Assembly (NCBI RefSeq): GCF_003945765.1
Contig: NZ_CP027712.1
Span: forward strand, 4,092,001-4,156,000
DNA from: Pseudomonas chlororaphis subsp. chlororaphis
GTDB taxonomy: Bacteria > Pseudomonadota > Gammaproteobacteria > Pseudomonadales > Pseudomonadaceae
Reading direction: 5' to 3'
DNA length: 64,000 nt
Both the position numbers and the translations under genes were made by a program. The notes under the pieces were generated by a model. That model did no database searches. It saw nothing but the letters and a program-made list of their open reading frames with translations, and was not told the DNA's origin. Shown piece by piece: positions 49,916 through 59,717 of this stretch. Position 1 is the stretch's first letter; the number at the start of each line of letters is the position of its first letter.

Positions 49916-50467
49916 ATGCAGCCGACTACACAGCCATGCACAGATACCATGTTCGAACTGAAAGACCTGCCTTCGCGCGAAACCCTCGAGCACTTCGGCA
50001 AGCTCTATGACAACCCCGATGTCGAGGGGCTCTATACCTGGCTGGTATGGGCGTCGGCGACGGATGAAATGCTCTCGGCATTTAATGCCAACCTCGCGCA
50101 CGAGAATCTTGCCCAAACACCGTTCTTCGTCCTGCTGCTGCTCAAGCGTAACCCTGGGGGGCTCTCGATCGGCGCGCTGGCTGATGGGGTAGCCGTGGCT
50201 TCGCAGACGATGACGCGCGCCATCAAGCAGATGGAAGCTGCCGGTCTTTGTACGAAACATCCGGACCCGGACGATGGGCGCTACTGGATCGTCCGGCTGA
50301 CCCCGGAGGGCGACAGCACCCTTGGCCGGGTGCTGCCCAAACACTACGAGTGGGTCGCCAAGTTCATGAGCCACTTCAAAGACGATGAGCGCGAGCTTTT
50401 GGTGAAACTGATGATGAGGGTGGCCCCTGCCCTGCGGACAATGCGCCTGGAAACGGAACTCGGCTGA
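49916..50467 (+). CDS. MarR-family transcriptional regulator
   Basis: A 183-residue MarR protein with the winged helix GGLSIGALADGVAVASQTMT RAIKQMEAAG (given in two parts) and the wing HPDPDDGRYWIVRLTPEG. It is divergent from the hybrid kinase gene and directly ahead of the MFS gene. Perfect TGTAGC/GCTACA dyad symmetry downstream (50491) is a likely operator for it. ATG 49949 is an alternative start. It probably represses the MFS/AfsA/pump genes and responds to a small molecule. Confidence 0.9.
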   Translation: MQPTTQPCTDTMFELKDLPSRETLEHFGKLYDNPDVEGLYTWLVWASATDEMLSAFNANLAHENLAQTPFFVLLLLKRNPGGLSIGALADGVAVASQTMTRAIKQMEAAGLCTKHPDPDDGRYWIVRLTPEGDSTLGRVLPKHYEWVAKFMSHFKDDERELLVKLMMRVAPALRTMRLETELG

Positions 50468-50490: not shown

Positions 50491-50504
50491 TGTAGCACGC
50501 TACA
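50491..50504. promoter_or_regulatory. Perfect 14-bp dyad, putative MarR operator
   Basis: TGTAGCACGCTACA (6-bp arms, 2-bp spacer) lies in the 141-nt gap between marR and the MFS gene. A second, looser TGTAG...CTACA pair spans the MFS start (50602-50622). Both fit a repressor controlling the MFS gene. Confidence 0.55.
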
Positions 50505-50608
50505 CAGCAACCTACAGAAAATGAAACCTTGGGCGGCTCCCTCGCGTCGCGGCCAGTAACGCCGCGACTTCAATGCCCTGGCGCCTCTATTGATCGAGAT
50601 ATGTAGCA

Positions 50609-51808
50609 ATGCACACATCTACACAGGATATGGCTCAACAACCCACAGCGACTTTGCTGGTGCAGATGGTGTTCTGCGCACTCGCCGTGGTCTCTCTCTT
50701 GTATATCCCGGTGCCTATCCTGCCCCTTTTGGCACAGGCCTATCAGTTGCCGCAGGAACAGGCTGGCCTCGCACTGGGCGCCTTCGGGTTCGCATACGCC
50801 ACGGGTTTTCTGGTGTTCGGGCCTTTATCCGATCGCCTTGGCCGCAGGACGGTCATGGTCGGCGGCCTGGTGCTGCTGGCCATCATCACGCTGGGGCTCG
50901 CATGGGTGCAGACGCCGACCCTGTTCATCTGCGGCCGTGCATTGCAGGGATTCGCCGCCGCCTCCTTCCCGCCCGTGGCCCTCGCCTATTTGTCCGAGCG
51001 CGGTACCCCCAGGCAACGTGTGTGGGGAGTGGCCTGGATGAGTACGGCATTCCTGTCGGCAGGTTTGCTCGGGCAGATCTACGGCAGCCTCGTTGCGGGG
51101 CGTTGGGGCCTGGGTTACGCCCTCATGCCGCTGGTGGTGATCTATGCCGCGACCGCGTTGCGCCTGGCCACAGTCCCGGAAGGAGCCCGAGCGGTACGTC
51201 CGAAGGGCTCGATGTGGGAAGGATATCGGCCCATCTTCACCTTGCTCGGTAACCCGGCCCTGCGCCGGGTCTATCTGCCCGCGCTCCTGCTGCTGATGTC
51301 ATTCGTCGCCTTTTACATAGGACTGGATATGCACCTGGGCGAGGTCATAGAAAGCCAGGGCATCAGCAGAATGCAAGCACGTGGCGTGGCGTTGCCGGCG
51401 TTTCTCGCGCCACTGCTCGCTGCCAAATTGATTGGTCGCTGGGGAGCCAAGCGGGTCGCTACCACGGGGCTTGGCGTCGCGGCGTTTGGACTGGTGCTCT
51501 GTGCAAGCGCCGGTCAAGAACACATTTCCCTGCTGCTGGCAGCCAGTGTCGTCTATGTCGCGGGAGTGGCCATCAGTGTCCCCGGGCTGATCGCTCGAAT
51601 CGCCGCGGCGGCATCGCCCGATGTTCGCGGCCTGGCGGTGTCCTTCTACACCTTCGTGCTCTTTGTCGGGGCGAGCCTTGGACCGTGGCTGGCAAACATC
51701 AGTCGCGCCTGGCAGGTGGAATCTTTTCTTCTGGTACTCGCAGCGGGGCTCGGCGCTGCAGCGTTGTACAGCGCTGCACGGGTAGATGACAGCTCCCGTG
51801 TGCGCTAG
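50609..51808 (+). CDS. MFS drug-efflux-type transporter
   Basis: A 399-residue transporter with about 12 helices; GPLSDRLGRRTVMVGGLVLL is the loop 2-3 motif and GRALQGFAAASFPPVALAYL is typical of the YnfM/arabinose-efflux group. It is the first gene of the run that continues with the AfsA-like gene, 117 nt away on the same strand, and so may export the product of that pathway. Confidence 0.88.
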   Translation: MHTSTQDMAQQPTATLLVQMVFCALAVVSLLYIPVPILPLLAQAYQLPQEQAGLALGAFGFAYATGFLVFGPLSDRLGRRTVMVGGLVLLAIITLGLAWVQTPTLFICGRALQGFAAASFPPVALAYLSERGTPRQRVWGVAWMSTAFLSAGLLGQIYGSLVAGRWGLGYALMPLVVIYAATALRLATVPEGARAVRPKGSMWEGYRPIFTLLGNPALRRVYLPALLLLMSFVAFYIGLDMHLGEVIESQGISRMQARGVALPAFLAPLLAAKLIGRWGAKRVATTGLGVAAFGLVLCASAGQEHISLLLAASVVYVAGVAISVPGLIARIAAAASPDVRGLAVSFYTFVLFVGASLGPWLANISRAWQVESFLLVLAAGLGAAALYSAARVDDSSRVR

Positions 51809-51925
51809 TCGAGCGGCCCTGGTTTCCACGCAGGACGTCAGTGGGAAGCGGGTCTGTTTTTGTAGTAATCCGGTATCGGCCAAACGACCTGCCGAAGGCC
51901 CCGGGTATAGAAAGGGAATCCATTG

Positions 51926-52732
51926 ATGGGTATCTACGTTGTAGTTGCAAACCAGTTCGAAGACTTCGCAAGGCATGAAAACGTGATGTCCTACAGCACG
52001 CTGCTGCTGGTGCTAAAGACACCGGGACCATCCGTGCTGAGAGGTTGCAAGGTCGTTGCCGGGCAGGGGCTTGGCCGCAAGGAAATTCAGCATGCCTATC
52101 GCATGGCGATCGCCAGCGGGCATGCCGATGAATTCGATCATTGGGACCTGTGGACGGGCGCGGAGCTGGCGGGCCAGGAGCTCGCCCACAAGCGCCAGCG
52201 CAAGAACGTGCTGATCTCCGTTCCGGAGAGGAACGAGGAAGGCCTCTATACCGCCAGCCTCCTGCTCCATGCCGAAAACGAGTTGATGCTCGACCACCTC
52301 ACTGGACAGCATGTGCAAGGCATGGTGCTGCTCGAAGCGTGCCGCCAGATGTTCCTGGCGGTGACGGAGCGCTTCCATCTGGACGACTACAAACCGCATA
52401 AGCGCTACTTCGTCCTCAACGAGATGAATGTCCGCTACACCGCCTTCGCCTTCCCGCTGCCGGCGCAGATCCGCTATCGCTTGATCGACCTGAAGCAACC
52501 GCGCCCCGACCGCGTCGAAGTGCAGGCGACGATGGAGGTCTGGCAGGGCGAACAATCCGTCACTGGCGTGGATGTCAAGTTCTGCGTCATGGATGCCAAG
52601 CGCCTCGGTCTGCGCGAGGCCACGCTCGCCTCTCGCGCCCTGTCCTCACAAGTCGACACCTTGCGCCGCCGCTTGCGCATGACCCCGCACCCGCATGCGC
52701 AGTTGATGACCGAGCCGATTCCCACCCTTTGA
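51926..52732 (+). CDS. AfsA-like hotdog-fold enzyme, candidate butenolide/butyrolactone synthase
   Basis: A 268-residue protein. The centre, residues about 122-140, reads DHLTGQHVQGMVLLEACRQ, the hotdog signature of AfsA/ScbA (DHxxDHxxGMxLLEAxRQ). KRQRKNVLISVPERNEEG before it and NEMNVRYTAFAFPLPAQI with VTGVDVKFCVMDAK after it fit the hotdog strands. In Streptomyces, AfsA joins a beta-ketoacyl chain to dihydroxyacetone phosphate, giving a butenolide phosphate. The HAD phosphatase gene follows 49 nt on, which would suit removal of that phosphate. The ATG at 51926 follows AGGGAA. The first 80 residues are less familiar. The family is seen; the reaction here is inferred. Confidence 0.75.
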   Translation: MGIYVVVANQFEDFARHENVMSYSTLLLVLKTPGPSVLRGCKVVAGQGLGRKEIQHAYRMAIASGHADEFDHWDLWTGAELAGQELAHKRQRKNVLISVPERNEEGLYTASLLLHAENELMLDHLTGQHVQGMVLLEACRQMFLAVTERFHLDDYKPHKRYFVLNEMNVRYTAFAFPLPAQIRYRLIDLKQPRPDRVEVQATMEVWQGEQSVTGVDVKFCVMDAKRLGLREATLASRALSSQVDTLRRRLRMTPHPHAQLMTEPIPTL

Positions 52733-52743
52733 TCCCATCGCCC

Positions 52744-52763
52744 GCTTGCACCCAGGTGCAAGC
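52744..52763. promoter_or_regulatory. Perfect 20-bp inverted repeat between AfsA-like and HAD genes
   Basis: GCTTGCACC-CA-GGTGCAAGC, 9-bp arms, in the 49-nt intergenic gap. No T-run follows, so it is a transcript-processing hairpin, an attenuator or a protein-binding site rather than a clear terminator. Confidence 0.5.
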
Positions 52764-52781
52764 GCCTTTCGAGTAATCGTA

Positions 52782-53480
52782 ATGACAGCACGAAGAATCG
52801 CTTTCTTCGACGTCGATGAAACCCTCATCGACCTCAAGAGCATGTTCAGTTTCCAAGCGTTCTACTTTCGCTGGCTATGGGGAGAGGAACGTGGCGGTGA
52901 GGCGGAAGTTGCCGCTGCCAAACGTATTGATGAGTACATCAGGAAAGGTTTCGATCGCTCTGCCATCAACACGCTGTTCTACGAAGACTTCCGCGATCAC
53001 CAGCCCGACCTGGTGGCCGACGCGGCCCAGGCCTGGTACGTCCAGGAAAGGACGCGCTCGGAATTCTTCATCCGTCCAGTCCTGCAGGCACTTCAGGAGC
53101 ACCAGGGCAACGGAGACATCGTCGCCTTCGTTTCAGGTTCGGCCATGGAGTTTCTGGCTCCACTGGCAGCCGAGCTGGGTGTGCCCCATGTTCTGGCAAA
53201 CCGGCTGGAAACGCGCGATGGGCGCTTTACAGGCCAGCTCATCCCGCCGCAAACCATTGGCCTGGGCAAACAGCAAGCCGCCTTGCGCCTGATGGATACG
53301 CTCAGCGTCGATCCAGCCGACTGCTATGGGTACGGCGATCACCTGACGGACCTCCCCCTCTTGATGAGCGTCGGGAAACCTACGGTAGTGGCGGGCGACC
53401 CGGCCCTGGTCAGGCATGCGGAGCAACGTGACTGGCCCATCCTCTACCCCGACGCGTCCCTGCATCGAGGAGAACCATGA
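52782..53480 (+). CDS. HAD-IB (SerB-like) phosphatase
   Basis: A 232-residue HAD phosphatase: motif I RRIAFFDVDETLIDLKSM (Asp10, Asp12), motif II IVAFVSGSAMEFLAPLAAEL, and motif III/IV YGYGDHLTDLPLLMSVGKP. The pattern is that of the HAD-IB family. Next to the AfsA-like gene it may dephosphorylate the butenolide phosphate. The start at 52782 was chosen since it begins right before motif I; the frame is open further upstream across the inverted repeat. It overlaps the next gene by 4 nt. Confidence 0.87.
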   Translation: MTARRIAFFDVDETLIDLKSMFSFQAFYFRWLWGEERGGEAEVAAAKRIDEYIRKGFDRSAINTLFYEDFRDHQPDLVADAAQAWYVQERTRSEFFIRPVLQALQEHQGNGDIVAFVSGSAMEFLAPLAAELGVPHVLANRLETRDGRFTGQLIPPQTIGLGKQQAALRLMDTLSVDPADCYGYGDHLTDLPLLMSVGKPTVVAGDPALVRHAEQRDWPILYPDASLHRGEP

Positions 53481-54046
53481 TGTCGTTTCACCCGTTCTCC
53501 TTCAGCCGCCTGGCGGTGGTGGCCAGCCTTGCCCTCTGGTTGAGCATCGCCGTATTCAACAACCTCACCGACCCGGAAACCAACCGCTTCCATATCGGCA
53601 ACACGCTTTCCATGGCGTTGCTGGAAGAAGAGGAACTGCTGGGCGCGGCCCTACGCTGGCGCGCCTGGCCAGCGCACTGGGCCGAAACGGCGCTGTACGC
53701 GGTGGCAGGCATCCAGATCGTCGTTTCGATGCTGCTCTGGTATGCGGCATTCACCTACGCCAGGGCTTGGCGCCTGGGCAGTCGTACCGCGCTGGACGTC
53801 GCCCGCAACCGCGCCGTCGTCGCCCTGACCTGCTTCCTGTTGCTGTGGTTCGGCTTCATCTGCGGAGGCCTGTGGTTCGGCTACTGGCTGAAGCAGGGCG
53901 CCATTCAATCGGTGCACATGACGCTGGTTCTGATAGGCCTGGTGGCACTGCTCTTCGTTCAAGGCGAGCCCCAATCATGGCCAGCTGTACAGCCCGCAGC
54001 CCCTGCCACGCCTGGCAGTCAACCACTCGAAAGGAGCCTTCCATGA
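53477..54046 (+). CDS. DUF2165-family membrane protein
   Basis: A 189-residue inner-membrane protein with four helices (LAVVASLALWLSIAVFNNL; AETALYAVAGIQIVVSMLLW; VVALTCFLLLWFGFICGGLW; HMTLVLIGLVALLF). FNNLTDPETNRFHIGNTLSM is the DUF2165 signature. Function unknown. ATGA overlaps on both sides bind it into the AfsA/HAD operon. Confidence 0.78.
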   Translation: MMSFHPFSFSRLAVVASLALWLSIAVFNNLTDPETNRFHIGNTLSMALLEEEELLGAALRWRAWPAHWAETALYAVAGIQIVVSMLLWYAAFTYARAWRLGSRTALDVARNRAVVALTCFLLLWFGFICGGLWFGYWLKQGAIQSVHMTLVLIGLVALLFVQGEPQSWPAVQPAAPATPGSQPLERSLP

Positions 54047-54711
54047 ACTCGCCGGTTCGCACCGCAAGCATTGCCCTCGTCATGGCCCTGGCAGCGATCA
54101 CTGCCACCGCCAACACCGATTCGCCCAAGGAGAAACCTGCCATGCACCAGCCCGCCACCCGCCTGATCGCAGTGCCTTCCATCTACCAGGAGTCCGCTCG
54201 TCGCCAGGTAACTGTCGACGGCGAGCAAGCGCTACTCACCCGCTACGTGCGCAGCGATGGCCGCAACTCAGGACTGGATGGCGAACACTTCAGCACCCTG
54301 GTTTCGGACGCCGGCGTGCTCAAGGGCTTCGCCAATATGTCGCTGGACCTGGTCGGCAAGCCACTGCCGTCGCGCGAACGCTCCGAGGAAATTGCCAGGC
54401 TGTTTCTCGAGCAGCATGCCCCCGACCTGATCGAGCGTATGAAGATCAGTTGGATCGAACCCCACGATGAACCATTGAAGGTGACGCGCGACGGCCACGA
54501 AGAGGTCGTGACCTTGAGCGGCATGAAAGTGAAGGCACGCAATCTGGTCGACGGTCGCTGGTTCTGGATCATCGTCGGCAGCGACGCAAAGCCCATGGTG
54601 TTCGAACGCGACATCGTCTGGATCACCTTCCCCGGCAAGCGCCAGACCGAGAAATGGCTGCATGACAGCTGGCTGGCAACGCAACCAGGCGCTTGGGCCC
54701 AGTCACTCTGA
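54043..54711 (+). CDS. Exported protein of unknown function
   Basis: A 222-residue protein with a signal peptide (MNSPVRTASIALVMALAAIT then ATA). The mature part has TLVSDAGVLKGFANMSLDL, ARLFLEQHAPDLIERMKISW and NLVDGRWFWIIVGSDAKPMV, which suggests a beta-sandwich or PepSY-like fold, but I do not recognise a family. It starts behind AAGGAG and overlaps the DUF2165 stop. It is probably periplasmic and works with the operon products. Confidence 0.75.
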   Translation: MNSPVRTASIALVMALAAITATANTDSPKEKPAMHQPATRLIAVPSIYQESARRQVTVDGEQALLTRYVRSDGRNSGLDGEHFSTLVSDAGVLKGFANMSLDLVGKPLPSRERSEEIARLFLEQHAPDLIERMKISWIEPHDEPLKVTRDGHEEVVTLSGMKVKARNLVDGRWFWIIVGSDAKPMVFERDIVWITFPGKRQTEKWLHDSWLATQPGAWAQSL

Positions 54712-54753
54712 CGCCGCCGTCAGGGCCAGGTGAACCATCTTTGGGAGTCAATC

Positions 54754-55983
54754 ATGCGCACCTCCAGTTCCAACAGCCTCAAGCACGCCTTGGCGCTGGT
54801 CGCCGTCAGCACGCTGGGCGCTTGCGGCCAGCCCAACCAGGGAGCGAGTACGGAACACCCCCTCCCCGTCGTCAGCGTCGCGGAGGTCGTCGTCCAGTCT
54901 CTCGCCGATTGGGACGAGTTCTCGGGCAGGCTTCAAGCCCCGGAGTCAGTCGATCTACGGCCGAGGGTCTCCGGGCATATCGACCGCGTGCTGTTTCGAG
55001 ACGGCTCGCTCGTCAAGAAAGGCGAGCTGTTGTTCCAGATCGACCCCAGGCCCTTGCAGGCGGAGGTCAATCGCCTCGACGCACAACTTCAGCAGGCCCG
55101 CGCCAAACAGACCCGCGCCGCCAGTGAAGCCCAGCGCGGCGAGAAGCTGAGGGCCAACCAGGCGATTTCCGCCGAGCTGGCTGACGCGCGCAAGACGGCG
55201 TACCAGGAAGCCAGTTCCGCCGTTGCAGCGATCCGCGCCCAACTCGACGCCGCGCGCCTGAATCTGAGCTTCACTCGCATCACGGCGCCCATCGACGGCC
55301 GCATCGGTCGCGCGCAGGTGACCGCCGGGAATCTGGTCAATGAGGGGGCCACACTGCTCACCACGCTGGTGGGCACGAAGGAGCTCTATGCGTACTTCGA
55401 TATCGACGAAGCCACCTACCTGAAACAGATTCGCCGCATACGAAGCGAAAAGGCCTTCTCCCCTTCCCGTGTGCCGGTGCATTTGGCACTGAGTACCGAC
55501 GAACGACCCGCGTATGAAGGTCGCCTGGACTTCCTCGATAACCAAGTCAATCCGCGTACCGGTACCCTGCAGGCACGTGCTGTCATCGACAACGGCGAAA
55601 ACGAGCTGCCCCCCGGGCTCTACGTTCGCCTGCAATTACCCGCCAGCGACCGCTACCCCGCCACCCTGGTCCGAGACGAAGCGATTGGCACCGACCTGGG
55701 CAATCGCTTCGTACTGGTGCTGGGCAAAGATGCGGTGGTGAGCTATCGCGCCGTCCAGCTTGGCCCCAAGGTCGAAGGCCTGCGCGTGATCCGCAAGGGC
55801 CTGAAGGCAGGAGACCGCATCGTGGTCAATGGCCTGCAGCATGCCCGTCCCGGTGCCAGGGTTACACCGGAACCGGTGGCCATGGCGACCGCTGAGGTGC
55901 TGGCCCGTTTGACGCGGCTGAATGCCTCTACCGAACCGACGCCTGTCGCACAACAAGGCCCGGAGCGGAGGACATCGCCATGA
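54754..55983 (+). CDS. RND efflux periplasmic adaptor lipoprotein (MexE-like)
   Basis: A 409-residue membrane fusion protein with a lipoprotein signal ending LGAC. The lipoyl/hairpin regions include DEFSGRLQAPESVDLRPRVS, LFQIDPRPLQAEVNRLDAQL and SFTRITAPIDGRIGRAQVTA; the close resemblance is to MexE. The start at 54754 follows GGGAG and gives the proper lipobox. It overlaps the pump gene by 4 nt. Confidence 0.9.
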   Translation: MRTSSSNSLKHALALVAVSTLGACGQPNQGASTEHPLPVVSVAEVVVQSLADWDEFSGRLQAPESVDLRPRVSGHIDRVLFRDGSLVKKGELLFQIDPRPLQAEVNRLDAQLQQARAKQTRAASEAQRGEKLRANQAISAELADARKTAYQEASSAVAAIRAQLDAARLNLSFTRITAPIDGRIGRAQVTAGNLVNEGATLLTTLVGTKELYAYFDIDEATYLKQIRRIRSEKAFSPSRVPVHLALSTDERPAYEGRLDFLDNQVNPRTGTLQARAVIDNGENELPPGLYVRLQLPASDRYPATLVRDEAIGTDLGNRFVLVLGKDAVVSYRAVQLGPKVEGLRVIRKGLKAGDRIVVNGLQHARPGARVTPEPVAMATAEVLARLTRLNASTEPTPVAQQGPERRTSP

Positions 55984-58900
55984 ACATCTCGCAGTTCTTT
56001 GTGCGACGCCCGATCTTCGCCATCGTCCTGTCGCTGCTCATTCTGATCGGCGGAATCGTCTCTCTGTTCCAGTTGCCGGTCAGCGAGTATCCGGAAGTCG
56101 TGCCGCCCACTATTGTGGTGCGGGCACAATTTCCGGGCGCGAACCCCGACGTGCTCGGCAAGACCGTAGCCTCACCGCTGGAGCAGGCCATCACCGGCGT
56201 GGAAAACATGCTCTACATGTCCTCCCAGTCGACCTCGGACGGCTCGATGACCCTGACCCTGACCTTCGCACTGGGCACGGACCTCAATGCCGCGCTGGTC
56301 CAGGTGCAAAGCAGGGTCACCCGCGCGACCACCCAGCTGCCTCCCGATGTCCAGCGGCTGGGCGTGACGGTGGACAAGACGTCGCCGGCGCTGGCCCAGG
56401 TCGTTCACCTGTATTCGCCAAGCGGCCAGTACGACCCGACCTATCTTGCCAACTACCTGACCATTCACGTCATCGACGAGCTGTACAAGATCGAGGGTGT
56501 CAGCGACATCCGCCTGCTGGGGATGGGCGATTATGCCCTGCGGGTCTGGCTGGATCCGGACAAGGTGGCTTCCTACAACCTGGCCGCGACGGATGTGATA
56601 CGCGCTATCCGCGAGCAGAACCGGGAGGTCGCCGTCGGCTCGCTCGGCGCACCGCCAAACGCGAGCGACAACGCCTTCCAGTTGCTCATTAACGCCCGAG
56701 GCAGGCTGGTCGACGAGGACGAGTTCGAGCGCATCATCGTGCATGTCGGCGAGCGCGGCGAAATCGTCCGCCTGCGCGACGTCGCACGCATCGAACTGGG
56801 CTCGAGCCAGTACGCCCTGCGCGCGCACCTCGACGGTCGCCCCTCCACCGCCTTGCAGATTTTCCAGGACGCGGATGCTAACGCCATCGAGCTGTCCGAC
56901 CGGATTCGCAAGCGGATGAGCGAGCTCGCTCAAGACTTCCCACCGGGCGTCGAACACTCGATCGGCTACGACCCCACCATCTTCGTGCGCAGCTCCATCA
57001 CCGCGGTGGTGTATACGCTGCTGGAGGCCGTCGCGCTCGTCGTACTGGTGGTCATCCTCTTTCTGCAGACATGGCGCGCGTCGATCATTCCGCTAGCCGC
57101 AGTGCCAGTGTCCCTGATCGGCACGCTCGCGGTCATGCAACTGCTGGGCTTTTCCATCAACGCGCTATCGCTGTTCGGCCTGGTGCTGGCTATCGGTATC
57201 GTGGTCGACGACGCCATCGTCGTGGTGGAGAACGTCGAACGCAACATCGACATGGGCAAGTCGCCGGTAGAAGCGACCCGCCAGGCGATGAAGGAAGTGA
57301 CCGGCCCGGTCATCGCCACCGCCCTGGTTCTATGCGCGGTGTTCATTCCGAGCGCTTTCATCTCCGGCCTCACCGGGCAGTTCTACCGGCAATTCGCGCT
57401 CACCATCGCGATATCGACGGTGATCTCGGCGTTCAACTCGTTGACCTTGTCGCCCGCCCTGGCCGCGATACTGCTCAAAGGCAAGGACGCACCCAAGGAT
57501 CGTCTGTCGAAGCTGATCGACCGACTGTTCGGGGGCTGGCTGTTCGCTCCATTCAACCGACTGTTCCAACGGGCAAGTGCGGGTTATGTCAGCCTCGCCA
57601 CGCGACTGCTGCGAGCGGGCTCCATCGTCCTGATGTTGTATGTCGGCCTGGTGGGACTGGCCTATCTGGGGCTGGAGAAAACCCCCACAGGCTTCATCCC
57701 TCAGCAGGACAAACAGTACCTGGTCGCCTTTGCCCAGCTGCCCGAAGGCGCCAGCCTGGACCGTACCGAGGCCGTCATCCTGAAGATGTCCGAGCTTGCC
57801 CTGAAGCATCCGGGGGTGGCCAATACCGTGAGTTTCAGCGGCCTGTCCATCAACGGCTTCGTCAACAGCGCAAGCGCGGGGCTCATGTTCATCCCGCTCA
57901 AATCCTTCGATGAACGCAAGGACGCCTCGATGTCAGACACCGCCATCGCCCAGGCCTTGACCGCTGAATATGGCCGGATCCAGGAGGCCTTCGTGATGGT
58001 GGTTCCCCCACCGCCAGTGGAAAGCCTGGGCTCTATCGGGGGCTTCCGGGTGCAGATCGAGGACCGCAGCAGCCTGGGGCATGAAGCGCTCTACCAGCAG
58101 ATTCAGTCGCTGGTGGACAAAGCCAGGGCGCTACCCGAACTGGCCGGCGTATTCTCCAGCTACCAGGTGAACGTCCCGCAGATCGACGCGGATATCGATC
58201 GGGACAAGGCCAAGGTCCATGGGGTGGCGATCGACGAAATCTTCGACACCCTGCAGGTCTACCTGGGCTCGATGTACGCCAACGACTTCAACCGCTTCGG
58301 GCGGACCTACCACGTCAATGTCCAGGCCGAGCAGGCATACCGCGTGGCGCCGGAGCAGATCGGCAGGCTGAAAGTACGCAACCGGCAGGGCGACCTCATT
58401 GCGTTGTCATCCTTCGTCCGGATACGGGAGTCGTCCGGTCCCGACCGAGTGATGCATTACAACGGTTTCCTGTCCGCCGAGATCAACGGCAGCCCGGCTC
58501 CGGGGTACAGCTCCGGCCAGGCCCAGGCAGCCATGGAGCGGCTGTTGCAGCAGGAGCTGCCCAACGGCATGGCCTATGAGTGGACCGAGCTAACCTACCA
58601 ACAGATTCTCGCCGGCAATACCGCCCTGCTGGTTTTTCCCTTGTGCGTGCTGCTGGCGTTCCTGGTGCTGGCCGCGCAGTACGAGAGCTGGAGCCTGCCG
58701 CTGGCAGTGGTGCTGATCGTCCCCATGACCCTGCTGTCGGCCATTGCCGGGGTGCTGCTCACCGGCGGCGACAACAACATCTTCACCCAGATCAGCCTGA
58801 TCGTGCTGGCGGGGCTCGCGTGCAAGAACGCCATCCTGCTGGTGGAGTTTGCCCGGGAGAAACAGCAGCAGGGCCTGGACTGCGTCAACGCAGTGCTAAA

Positions 58901-59162
58901 GGCCTGCCATCTGCGCTTACGCCCGATTCTGATGACGTCCATCGCCTTCATCATGGGCGTGGTGCCTTTGGTGTTGTCCTCCGGTGCCGGCGCCGAGATG
59001 CGCCGGGCCATGGGCATCGCGGTGTTCTCGGGGATGGTCGGTGTCACCTTCTTCGGCCTGCTCCTGACCCCGGTCTTCTATGTATGGCTGCGTCGCCTGG
59101 TGGAAAGACGCGCCCAACGGCGCACCGCCATGAAGAAGGTGTTTTGGGAGGACAAAACATGA
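55980..59162 (+). CDS. RND efflux pump (MexF-like)
   Basis: A 1060-residue HAE1-type RND permease, very like MexF in sequence: SQFFVRRPIFAIVLSLLILI, FQLPVSEYPEVVPPTIVVRA, PGANPDVLGKTVASPLEQAI. The proton relay Asp pair is in GIVVDDAIVVVENVERNIDM. Twelve helices with two large periplasmic loops are seen. It exports amphiphilic compounds with the MexE-like adaptor. No outer-membrane channel gene follows, so it must borrow one. Confidence 0.95.
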   Translation: MNISQFFVRRPIFAIVLSLLILIGGIVSLFQLPVSEYPEVVPPTIVVRAQFPGANPDVLGKTVASPLEQAITGVENMLYMSSQSTSDGSMTLTLTFALGTDLNAALVQVQSRVTRATTQLPPDVQRLGVTVDKTSPALAQVVHLYSPSGQYDPTYLANYLTIHVIDELYKIEGVSDIRLLGMGDYALRVWLDPDKVASYNLAATDVIRAIREQNREVAVGSLGAPPNASDNAFQLLINARGRLVDEDEFERIIVHVGERGEIVRLRDVARIELGSSQYALRAHLDGRPSTALQIFQDADANAIELSDRIRKRMSELAQDFPPGVEHSIGYDPTIFVRSSITAVVYTLLEAVALVVLVVILFLQTWRASIIPLAAVPVSLIGTLAVMQLLGFSINALSLFGLVLAIGIVVDDAIVVVENVERNIDMGKSPVEATRQAMKEVTGPVIATALVLCAVFIPSAFISGLTGQFYRQFALTIAISTVISAFNSLTLSPALAAILLKGKDAPKDRLSKLIDRLFGGWLFAPFNRLFQRASAGYVSLATRLLRAGSIVLMLYVGLVGLAYLGLEKTPTGFIPQQDKQYLVAFAQLPEGASLDRTEAVILKMSELALKHPGVANTVSFSGLSINGFVNSASAGLMFIPLKSFDERKDASMSDTAIAQALTAEYGRIQEAFVMVVPPPPVESLGSIGGFRVQIEDRSSLGHEALYQQIQSLVDKARALPELAGVFSSYQVNVPQIDADIDRDKAKVHGVAIDEIFDTLQVYLGSMYANDFNRFGRTYHVNVQAEQAYRVAPEQIGRLKVRNRQGDLIALSSFVRIRESSGPDRVMHYNGFLSAEINGSPAPGYSSGQAQAAMERLLQQELPNGMAYEWTELTYQQILAGNTALLVFPLCVLLAFLVLAAQYESWSLPLAVVLIVPMTLLSAIAGVLLTGGDNNIFTQISLIVLAGLACKNAILLVEFAREKQQQGLDCVNAVLKACHLRLRPILMTSIAFIMGVVPLVLSSGAGAEMRRAMGIAVFSGMVGVTFFGLLLTPVFYVWLRRLVERRAQRRTAMKKVFWEDKT

Positions 59163-59240
59163 GTCGCCTGCTATCGGCTCTTGGCGGAGGCTGGCAGCCC
59201 GGTTGAAGCAGCATTTTTTTGTGGACGGAGAAGTCGCGTT

Positions 59241-59717
59241 ATGAAAGCTCTTGCAGTTGCCTGTGTACTGGCAGGCCTGATCAATGCTCTGCCCGCATCG
59301 GCGGCAGATAGCCCCATTTCCGCTAATGGAGAAACCTCAGTGGTCATCAGAAAGAACTATCCCACCCTGCCCGAACCGGCCGGCCCCTACTCCGTTTCGG
59401 TTCGTCACAACGGCACCCTGTACCTGTCCGGCATGACAGCCTTCGGTACGCCGGCCCAGGGCAAAGACATCGCCAGGCAGGCCGAAGCCATATTCGAACA
59501 GATCAAGCGCGTCACCCAGGCCGAGGGAATCGGCATGCGCGACCTCATCAAGGTGACCATCTTCGTGACCTCGATGGACGAAGTCGGCGCATTGCGTGAA
59601 GTCCTGTCGAAGAACTATGGCGGTGCCTACCCGGCCAGCTCACTGGTGAGGGTGGCCGGATTGTTCTCGCCAGAGGTCAATATCGAGATCGAGGCGGTAT
59701 TTGCAGTACCTGGCTGA
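59241..59717 (+). CDS. Exported RidA-family protein lacking the catalytic Arg
   Basis: A 158-residue Rid/YjgF-family protein with a signal peptide (MKALAVACVLAGLINALPAS then A), so it is periplasmic, unlike cytoplasmic RidA. Family marks are GPYSVSVRHNGTLYLSGM, DLIKVTIFVTSMDEVGALRE and the end VNIEIEAVF. At the RidA Arg105 position (YPARS in RidA) the sequence is YPASS, so imine deaminase activity is unlikely. It lies 78 nt behind the RND pump and is probably in the same operon. Confidence 0.85.
   Translation: MKALAVACVLAGLINALPASAADSPISANGETSVVIRKNYPTLPEPAGPYSVSVRHNGTLYLSGMTAFGTPAQGKDIARQAEAIFEQIKRVTQAEGIGMRDLIKVTIFVTSMDEVGALREVLSKNYGGAYPASSLVRVAGLFSPEVNIEIEAVFAVPG

Follow-up and report, generated by a model that had tools for sequence, protein, structure and literature searches.

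A possible butenolide biosynthesis and self-protection cluster around a single-hotdog AfsA-like enzyme in Pseudomonas chlororaphis

Introduction

What does a pseudomonad make with a relative of AfsA and a phosphatase encoded side by side: a signal, or something else? Streptomyces systems of the A-factor and ScbA/BarX kind have two hotdogs, an ArpA-type TetR receptor and a BprA-type reductase. Genome papers that list "butyrolactone" clusters of proteobacteria do so against the background of the Streptomyces signal, and an earlier note on the present locus proposed a butenolide-type signal system. antiSMASH clusters of this name are already listed for P. chlororaphis ARS-38 and S1Bt23, in the available parts of these papers without genes or function (PMC6965584, PMC11372166). 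They are possibly the locus studied here, because its nearest named relatives are from P. chlororaphis. In the accessible part of PMC7415375, one table marks a butyrolactone cluster for Pseudomonas F113 but none for the two P. chlororaphis strains it includes.

We analyzed the locus in a stretch of 64,000 nucleotides (the window) from P. chlororaphis subsp. chlororaphis. Our main reading, to which we assign a probability of about 0.5, is a small biosynthesis and self-protection cluster, in which a butenolide-type antibacterial would be made and self-protection would be controlled by MarR.

Organization of the cluster

The features of the cluster are as follows.

49917..49930, + strand: putative MarR operator 1, TGCAGCCGACTACA; two mismatches to TGTAGCNNGCTACA; the likely marR start follows 32 bases downstream
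49949..50467, + strand: marR; PF01047 match, start placed by aligning L102 and L109
50491..50504, + strand: putative MarR operator 2, TGTAGCACGCTACA, a perfect palindrome; in the marR-MFS gap, +542 from the marR start
50609..51808, + strand: MFS exporter; PF07690, 122.8 bits
51926..52732, + strand: AfsA-like single-hotdog enzyme, predicted phosphorylated-butenolide synthase; PF03756
52782..53480, + strand: HAD-IB phosphatase; PF12710, 99.3 bits; TIGR01490, 106.9 bits (cut-off 98.3)
53477..54046, + strand: DUF2165 small membrane protein; PF09933, 81.3 bits
54043..54711, + strand: EXP, exported, predicted PepSY-like fold; leader read from the sequence
54730..55983, + strand: RND periplasmic adaptor, MexE-like; Pfam and NCBIfam; membership of the system uncertain
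55980..59162, + strand: RND permease, MexF/OqxB-like; Pfam and NCBIfam; membership uncertain
59241..59717, + strand: Rid-family protein, exported; PF01042, 78.3 bits; membership uncertain

All of the genes named in the earlier note (AfsA-like, HAD, DUF2165, EXP, RND pump and Rid) were present on the plus strand with short gaps or 4-base overlaps, and marR and the MFS gene preceded the AfsA-like gene as claimed. The start of marR is likely 49949 rather than 49916, because the orthologues in L102 and L109 begin with MFELKDLPS and putative operator 1 spans 49917-49930. The G+C content of the cluster genes (58.9-64.4%) was unremarkable compared with that of the window (63.6%).

The last three genes had been described as a MexEF-like pump and an exported RidA. 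The RND adaptor and permease were indeed present, with the adaptor scoring 564 bits against the MexE equivalog NF045904 (cut-off 714), and the Rid protein exceeded the Pfam cut-off, with 70.5 bits against a TIGR00004 cut-off of 106.25. The RND adaptor and permease lay beside AfsA in 1 of 58 related loci, and we do not regard the pump and Rid as conserved parts of the system.

The AfsA-like protein

The AfsA-like protein consists of 268 residues and carries the motif DHLTGQHVQGMVLLEACRQ. PF03756 matched it in a single stretch, residues 88-220, with 61.6 bits (gathering cut-off 24), which places it in the AfsA family as suspected; the gene was the sole PF03756 match in its own 6.81-Mb genome. 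The confident structure model revealed one hotdog behind a small N-terminal α/β part. This predicted fold is FabZ-like, and the top structural matches were FabZ and thioesterases. A profile alignment of FabZ to AfsA was not significant (probability 0.2%), and we therefore confine any active-site claim to the conserved D-H...G-M...E motif. The alignment of AfsA relatives comprised 44 of the 120 listed plus the window protein.

ScbA/BarX γ-butyrolactone synthases have two tandem hotdog domains, whereas the AfsA-like protein has one Pfam stretch and one hotdog in its model. The score against the synthase model NF041195 was 26.5 bits, compared with an equivalog cut-off of 200. The single-domain relatives L100, L042, L086 and L088 also fell below this cut-off, as did L044; the two-domain Pseudomonas proteins L004, L005 and L007, used as a positive control, reached 220.7-221.9 bits, and L004-L007 each contain two PF03756 stretches. 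On the basis of the single hotdog and the low model score, the protein is by sequence neither a classical A-factor synthase nor of the ScbA/BarX type.

Coupling of AfsA to the HAD phosphatase

The motifs DVDET and GDHLTD (DxDxT/GDxxxD) were read in the phosphatase, which passed the TIGR01490 cut-off, and both catalytic motifs were present in 50 of 51 HAD-containing ORFs. A HAD gene was located within 6 kb of AfsA in 49 of the 58 loci, several of which are close relatives of each other, and these loci came from alpha-, beta- and gammaproteobacteria and from actinobacteria; 402 kb of flank farther out contained one HAD. Three of the nine loci without a HAD gene within 6 kb are from Pseudomonas (L088-L090) and have full context. 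One collection of AfsA loci is a sample, of at least 46. The frequency of this coupling fits a phosphorylated intermediate. The earlier note had staked its proposal on the protein belonging to the AfsA family and on the AfsA and HAD genes being conserved together, and we found both.

The HAD profile was built from a set containing a joined X1-HAD ORF (L059), and a single-sequence search gave identical counts. An hhalign suggestion that the accessory protein X1 is a degenerate HAD was rejected, because the HAD set contained this joined ORF and the X1 rows had no HAD motifs (one chance DRDGT in 12).

EXP and free-standing marR-MFS-EXP modules

EXP had no Pfam or NCBIfam match. Foldseek alone gave no match under an E-value of 0.001, and VIA-align gave YpeB; a possible second in-frame start with a Shine-Dalgarno motif was found at 54142. 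The EXP alignment contained 29 of the 120 listed relatives plus the window protein. DUF2165 and EXP occurred together in 7/7 AfsA loci having either, and the pairing was not confined to a single branch of the AfsA tree. Loci whose copies were broken, partial or duplicated (L071, L073, L074 and L099 are examples) were left out of this tree, which has 64 rows, 27 of them unlabelled; P0002 and P0022 received their labels through same-sized contigs shared with EXP relatives. An MFS relative was near EXP in six of these seven AfsA loci. MFS relatives also adjoined EXP in L102, L109 and L117; in the window, the enzyme genes sit between MFS and EXP. The two accessory sets, X1/X3 and DUF2165 plus EXP, were never mixed, and no EXP locus had X1 or X3 nearby. 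The X1/X3 profiles were applied to fetched loci, and the nine window products fall in other families or EXP.

We also found marR-MFS-EXP in three stretches that contain no AfsA, HAD or DUF2165: one on a conjugative plasmid of Oligella that bears sul2, one in G1229 (EXP truncated) and one in G1338. The AfsA profile had no match in G1229 or on the Oligella plasmid, the plasmid being the part of Oligella covered; the same model matched in other searches, and this one lacked a positive control of its own. For G1338, the absence of AfsA covers the 19.9 kb fetched. Additionally, the MarR/AfsA, AfsA/EXP and MarR/EXP lists had 10, 12 and 12 same-sized contigs in common, compared with 0-2 for shifted lists (114/150 MarR, 56/152 AfsA and 120/487 EXP clusters); these counts speak to co-location and not to absence, because each protein cluster displays its longest contig only.

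MarR and its putative operators

MarR belongs to a discrete subfamily, in which Cys101 was kept in 35/35 aligned rows (33 of the 120 listed relatives, plus the window protein and L102). The palindrome TGTAGCNNGCTACA was present in the marR-MFS gap of all four modules, with 0 mismatches in the window and 0, 3 and 1 in the others; G1338 was fetched after the pattern had been fixed. Matches with three mismatches, as in the G1229 gap, arise readily by chance: 3.5 kb is expected to contain 1.48 of them. Upstream of marR, similar sites lay at -40 in one other module (0 mismatches) and at -44 in another (2 mismatches), and the Oligella module had no site with three or fewer mismatches there. The exact sequence of operator 2 occurs at two places in the 6.81-Mb genome, where chance alone would give about 0.4 (12 fixed bases). 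AfsA-linked rows were mixed with the free ones in the MarR tree, but with three free rows this was no better than shuffled labels. The occurrence of marR-MFS-EXP without AfsA nearby and the palindrome common to all four modules are new.

Comparison with known systems

The "GBL" killing cluster of Ruegeria pomeroyi DSS-3 (SPOA0342 region, NC_006569.1) shares with the window an AfsA relative (35% identity over 87%) that also fails the ScbA/BarX model (23.9 bits), a HAD-IB phosphatase and an MFS gene. It differs in having LysR, X3, X1, a tautomerase, an aldo/keto reductase and CMD, whereas the window has MarR, DUF2165 and EXP; furthermore, it lies on a megaplasmid and is the one of the two that has been studied genetically. 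According to the available text of PMC7426152, the DSS-3 cluster is needed for diffusible killing, SPOA0341 and SPOA0344 mutants lose immunity, and afsA is also required for transcription of the cluster, with signalling left open by its authors. The killing evidence stems from the other accessory type (X1/X3 and LysR, without EXP).

In Chromobacterium subtsugae ATCC 31532, the accessible part of PMC12114271 describes a hypothetical-AfsA-HAD-DUF2165-MarR-efflux operon (U6115_04630-04665) as the most strongly quorum-induced cluster. The AfsA, HAD-IB, DUF2165, MarR and efflux genes are as in the window and form one co-expressed set there; unlike in the window, MarR lies within the operon and the pump is OprM-HlyD-DHA2 MFS.

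Gladiostatin and gladiofungin from Burkholderia gladioli likewise place pfam03756 chemistry outside Streptomyces, in their case with a polyketide synthase that ends in the fused AfsA-like domain (PMC7756379 and PMC7756420, as excerpted). The gladiostatin cluster also has putative phosphatase genes, and as far as the excerpt of PMC7756379 goes, the AfsA-like PBS domain with DHAP and a phosphatase yields a 2-acyl-3-hydroxymethyl butenolide in vitro, with the phosphatase SabP required together with the AfsA-type SabA.

The window shares the PF03756 hotdog and the phosphatase step with the Streptomyces A-factor and ScbA/BarX systems. No ArpA-type TetR receptor and no BprA-type reductase were among the nine cluster products in a Pfam and NCBIfam scan, in agreement with the earlier remark that a reductase is lacking.

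Proposed function and alternatives

We infer the following chemical, toxic and regulatory steps. The AfsA-like enzyme would join a β-keto-acyl thioester from fatty-acid metabolism to dihydroxyacetone phosphate, giving a phosphorylated 2-acyl-3-hydroxymethyl-butenolide, from which the HAD enzyme would strip the phosphate. Because the nine gene products include no reductase, the alkene would stay, and the product would be an electrophilic, probably antibacterial butenolide. MarR may occupy the two palindromes, ahead of itself and ahead of MFS, and be released when its conserved cysteine or a ligand pocket meets the product, which would turn on the exporter, the enzymes and EXP together. The MFS protein and the exported EXP, with its predicted PepSY-like fold, would shield the producer, and marR-MFS-EXP may have spread to enzyme-free bacteria as a resistance module. 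A butenolide made by AfsA and HAD, as previously proposed, fits the PF03756 match, the FabZ-like hotdog, the coupling and the gladiostatin precedent (PMC7756379, available part); the ScbA/BarX type does not apply.

The alternatives differ in what they make of the same genes. A low-level diffusible butenolide or γ-butyrolactone signal, with MarR as the receptor and the pumps for export, would suit the kinship to AfsA, the AfsA-dependent transcription in DSS-3 (PMC7426152, excerpt) and the strong quorum induction in Chromobacterium (PMC12114271, excerpt). Without a TetR-type receptor or reductase among the nine products, with the module retained where AfsA is not nearby, once beside sul2 on a conjugative plasmid, and with a rare and patchy distribution in Pseudomonas (7/398), we consider it unlikely, if still worth keeping in mind. 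We favour an antibacterial with self-protection rather than a signal alone. Of the clusters with genetics, the nearest is required for killing and immunity (PMC7426152, available text), and marR-MFS-EXP is also found without AfsA nearby; the signal reading of the earlier note is for these reasons the less well supported.

One could also take marR-MFS-EXP for a general pump that detoxifies, for example, phenols or quinones, and the AfsA-HAD unit beside it for one of separate function. This appears improbable: two MarR relatives (P0243, P0267) carry the name MhqR in their sources, MFS and RND pumps are common and free modules exist, but EXP keeps company with DUF2165 and an MFS relative across AfsA loci, and the window has the enzyme genes flanked by MFS and EXP. 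Still less probable is an acyl-thioester dehydratase or thioesterase paired with a lipid or metabolite phosphatase and making no butenolide. The structural matches and the failure of the protein and its relatives in the ScbA/BarX model point that way; against it are the PF03756 score well above its cut-off, the frequent phosphatase coupling, which suits a phosphorylated intermediate, and the phosphobutenolide made in vitro by an AfsA-like domain outside Streptomyces (PMC7756379, excerpt).

Building on the antibacterial reading, we tentatively suggest, with the odds somewhat against it, that marR-MFS-EXP moves horizontally as a resistance module dedicated to protection from a class of AfsA-made electrophilic butenolide antibiotics. 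Producers would carry this module round or beside AfsA-HAD-DUF2165, and non-producers would carry it alone. MarR would sense the butenolide via its invariant cysteine and bind TGTAGCNNGCTACA. EXP would be a PepSY-like protein that is exported and gives protection, and its two starts may yield two forms of it. The free modules could instead guard against an unrelated compound. If the suggestion is true, a conjugative plasmid with sul2 already carries a resistance module for an unnamed antibiotic. If a single-hotdog AfsA and a HAD yield a toxic butenolide with portable protection, such clusters would be antibiotic factories, and the Ruegeria killing factor, the most quorum-induced Chromobacterium operon and the Pseudomonas cluster may share one chemistry. 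With its common putative operator and conserved cysteine, MarR is a candidate reporter for finding the product molecule.

Additional observations

A promoter and terminator scan performed no better than chance. Searches of viral contigs, of E. coli genomes for distant DNA matches, and of genome contigs with a single protein were of no help, and nothing helpful was found in the literature on MarR, efflux and butenolides. The second exact genome copy of the operator 2 sequence (L114) is located between MipA/OmpV-like and MtnX-like HAD genes, which were recognized by eye.

Gene content of the cluster

Gene reading, together with Pfam and NCBIfam scans, bore out the gene list of the earlier note. 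The genes were found in the following order:

49949-50467, plus strand, MarR regulator
50609-51808, plus strand, MFS transporter
51926-52732, plus strand, AfsA-like protein
52782-53480, plus strand, HAD-IB phosphatase
53477-54046, plus strand, DUF2165 protein
54043-54711, plus strand, exported protein (EXP)
54730-55983, plus strand, RND adaptor
55980-59162, plus strand, RND permease
59241-59717, plus strand, exported Rid protein

The AfsA-like protein matched the PF03756 profile (61.6 bits, residues 88-220), as expected for the proposed AfsA family member, and was the sole match in the window's 6.81-Mb genome. The nearest named relatives suggested Pseudomonas chlororaphis as the host. EXP was assigned to no family in Pfam or NCBIfam, and the same two collections revealed no reductase among the nine cluster products, in agreement with the earlier reading. 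Past its leader, the EXP frame contains a conserved methionine codon (ATG at 54142) that has a Shine-Dalgarno motif, as if the protein were made in two forms, exported and cytosolic.

Conservation of the AfsA-HAD pair

We compared 58 related loci (46 from named genomes, 11 further genomic stretches and the Ruegeria megaplasmid). AfsA and HAD were conserved together in other genomes: 49 of the 58 loci had a HAD no more than 6 kb from AfsA, as did 39 of the 45 with 6 kb present on both sides; beyond this distance, a single HAD was found in 402 kb of flank. A single-sequence search with the window HAD reproduced the 49 near and 1 far. The pairing spanned alpha-, beta- and gammaproteobacteria and actinobacteria. 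As for the HAD-less loci, the sequence stopped less than 2 kb from AfsA on at least one side in L032 and L099, AfsA was broken in L073, and L075 carried the far HAD; L052, L076, L088, L089 and L090 had no HAD within 6 kb. The motif DxDx[TV] was present in 51/51 HAD-containing ORFs and G[DN]xxxD in addition in 50/51, a set that includes copies of the window HAD gene as well as a joined ORF from Paracoccus binzhouensis. In the latter (L059 2598-4322), HAD and X1, an accessory protein of Ruegeria-type loci, read as a single ORF, which may be a natural fusion; elsewhere the two are separate genes lying side by side.

Two accessory sets

X1 and a second Ruegeria-type accessory protein, X3, flank AfsA in Ruegeria and were located within 6 kb of AfsA in 28 and 30 of the 58 loci, respectively; one example of each was tested and matched no Pfam family. 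DUF2165 and EXP occurred in seven of the 58 loci, both every time, and no EXP-bearing locus among the 58 contained X1 or X3. On the AfsA tree, the accessory labels required four changes, of which strongly supported branches impose three; shuffled labels required 8.9. The sets thus track descent yet have been exchanged. EXP was present in 5 of 13 genomes with AfsA loci, as a single copy each and at positions agreeing with the AfsA loci, and six of the seven DUF2165-EXP loci had an MFS relative close to EXP. The RND pump and Rid were not counted as conserved parts, since a window-like adaptor and permease were near AfsA in only 1/58 loci (L062); L074 had an RND permease relative approximately 6.6 kb from AfsA.

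In three loci of Endobugula-type gammaproteobacteria (L039, L045 and L055; Endobugula is a bryozoan symbiont), AfsA-HAD was followed by a common gene run (clusters 12, 27, 25, 26, 28 and 29), which is a third kind of neighbourhood.

Free marR-MFS-EXP modules and a putative operator

An EXP search of 72,556 plasmid records gave one match, on a 34-kb conjugative plasmid of Oligella ureolytica (NZ_CP065724.1), where marR-MFS-EXP was found with sul2 about 1.7 kb away; AfsA was not found on this plasmid, and HAD and DUF2165 were absent from the 18.6 kb examined. The one match among 399 Burkholderiales genomes, G1229, contained marR-MFS and an EXP without its N-terminal part, and showed no AfsA match in a search that lacked its own positive control and used a model that matched in other searches. 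A MarR search of 96 genomes of its family matched G1229, whose MarR is identical to one of Castellaniella defragrans, and G1338, which carried marR-MFS-EXP (EXP, 230 aa) with no AfsA in the 19.9 kb examined around the module.

The palindrome TGTAGCACGCTACA was recognised by eye in the window marR-MFS gap and then in the Oligella and G1229 modules; G1338 was a fresh test, made after the pattern had been seen in those three. Relative to the marR start, sites were located at -32 (2 mismatches) and +542 (0) in the window, +572 (0) in Oligella, with none upstream of marR, -40 (0) and +540 (3) in G1229, and -44 (2) and +542 (1) in G1338. Sites with 3 mismatches often arise by chance, so that only the position of the G1229 gap site carries weight. 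The exact palindrome occurred at two places in the window's genome. The second copy, TGTAGCNNGCTACA (C1:5458935-5458948, L114), has a MipA/OmpV-like gene on one side and an MtnX-like HAD phosphatase and an aminotransferase-like gene on the other (named by eye), and may be a chance occurrence.

The Oligella and G1229 proteins showed 66% and 61% identity to the window MarR. Scores of the best 120 of 150 MarR matches fell sharply after 115, which marks MarR as a member of a discrete subfamily. C101 was conserved in 35/35 aligned rows and was the sole cysteine in 21 of these. To our knowledge, cysteine is uncommon at this position, which follows the recognition helix; C101 is therefore a candidate electrophile sensor.

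Proposed product and function

AfsA-type enzymes couple beta-ketothioesters with DHAP. In vitro, the domain from gladiostatin biosynthesis yielded a 2-acyl-3-hydroxymethyl butenolide when combined with DHAP and a phosphatase, and the phosphatase SabP is required beside SabA for SAB biosynthesis (PMC7756379). The window pair fits this order of AfsA-type condensation followed by a phosphatase: the AfsA-like enzyme would join a beta-ketothioester and DHAP, and HAD would then take off the phosphate. Because no reductase was among the nine products, the simplest assumption is a product that is unsaturated and reacts with thiols.

For Ruegeria pomeroyi DSS-3, it is reported that a related cluster was required for killing and immunity, that afsA mutants were still immune and SPOA0341 and SPOA0344 mutants were not, that cluster transcription requires afsA, and that SPOA0341-0343 homologues co-occur; its authors allow either an antimicrobial or a signal (PMC7426152). 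The AfsA-HAD-DUF2165-MarR-efflux genes were the most strongly quorum-induced cluster of Chromobacterium subtsugae (PMC12114271). The AfsA-HAD pair fits the chemistry proposed in the earlier note, but the DSS-3 and C. subtsugae data and the free modules indirectly favour a toxic product plus self-protection rather than a signal alone.

Occurrence in Pseudomonas and relation to published clusters

'Butyrolactone' clusters are already listed for P. chlororaphis genomes (PMC6965584, PMC11372166), an AfsA ortholog is recorded on a Pantoea ICE (PMC4458695), and the similar Chromobacterium operon is likewise known. Among the matches listed in searches of the open-access literature, no account was found of the single-hotdog AfsA-HAD family as such, of its two mutually exclusive sets of accessory genes, or of the free marR-MFS-EXP module with its putative operator.

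A PF03756 match of any kind was present in 34 of 298 Pseudomonas genomes, window-type AfsA (E 1e-15) in just 7 of 398, one of them the window's genome, and EXP in 1 of 298, again the window's genome. Open frames of 1143-1184 aa accounted for 16 of the 34. In L016 (1-1917), a ketosynthase-like part was apparently joined, as judged by eye, to two AfsA hotdogs in one long Pseudomonas ORF; similar frames included L012, L014, L017-L020, L022 and L024-L030. The HAD-less L088-L090, from three Pseudomonas genomes (short loci L081-L083), contained divergent AfsA relatives and had other neighbours in common, with cluster 21 present in all three short loci and cluster 6 in L081 and L082; their context is a further, different AfsA neighbourhood.
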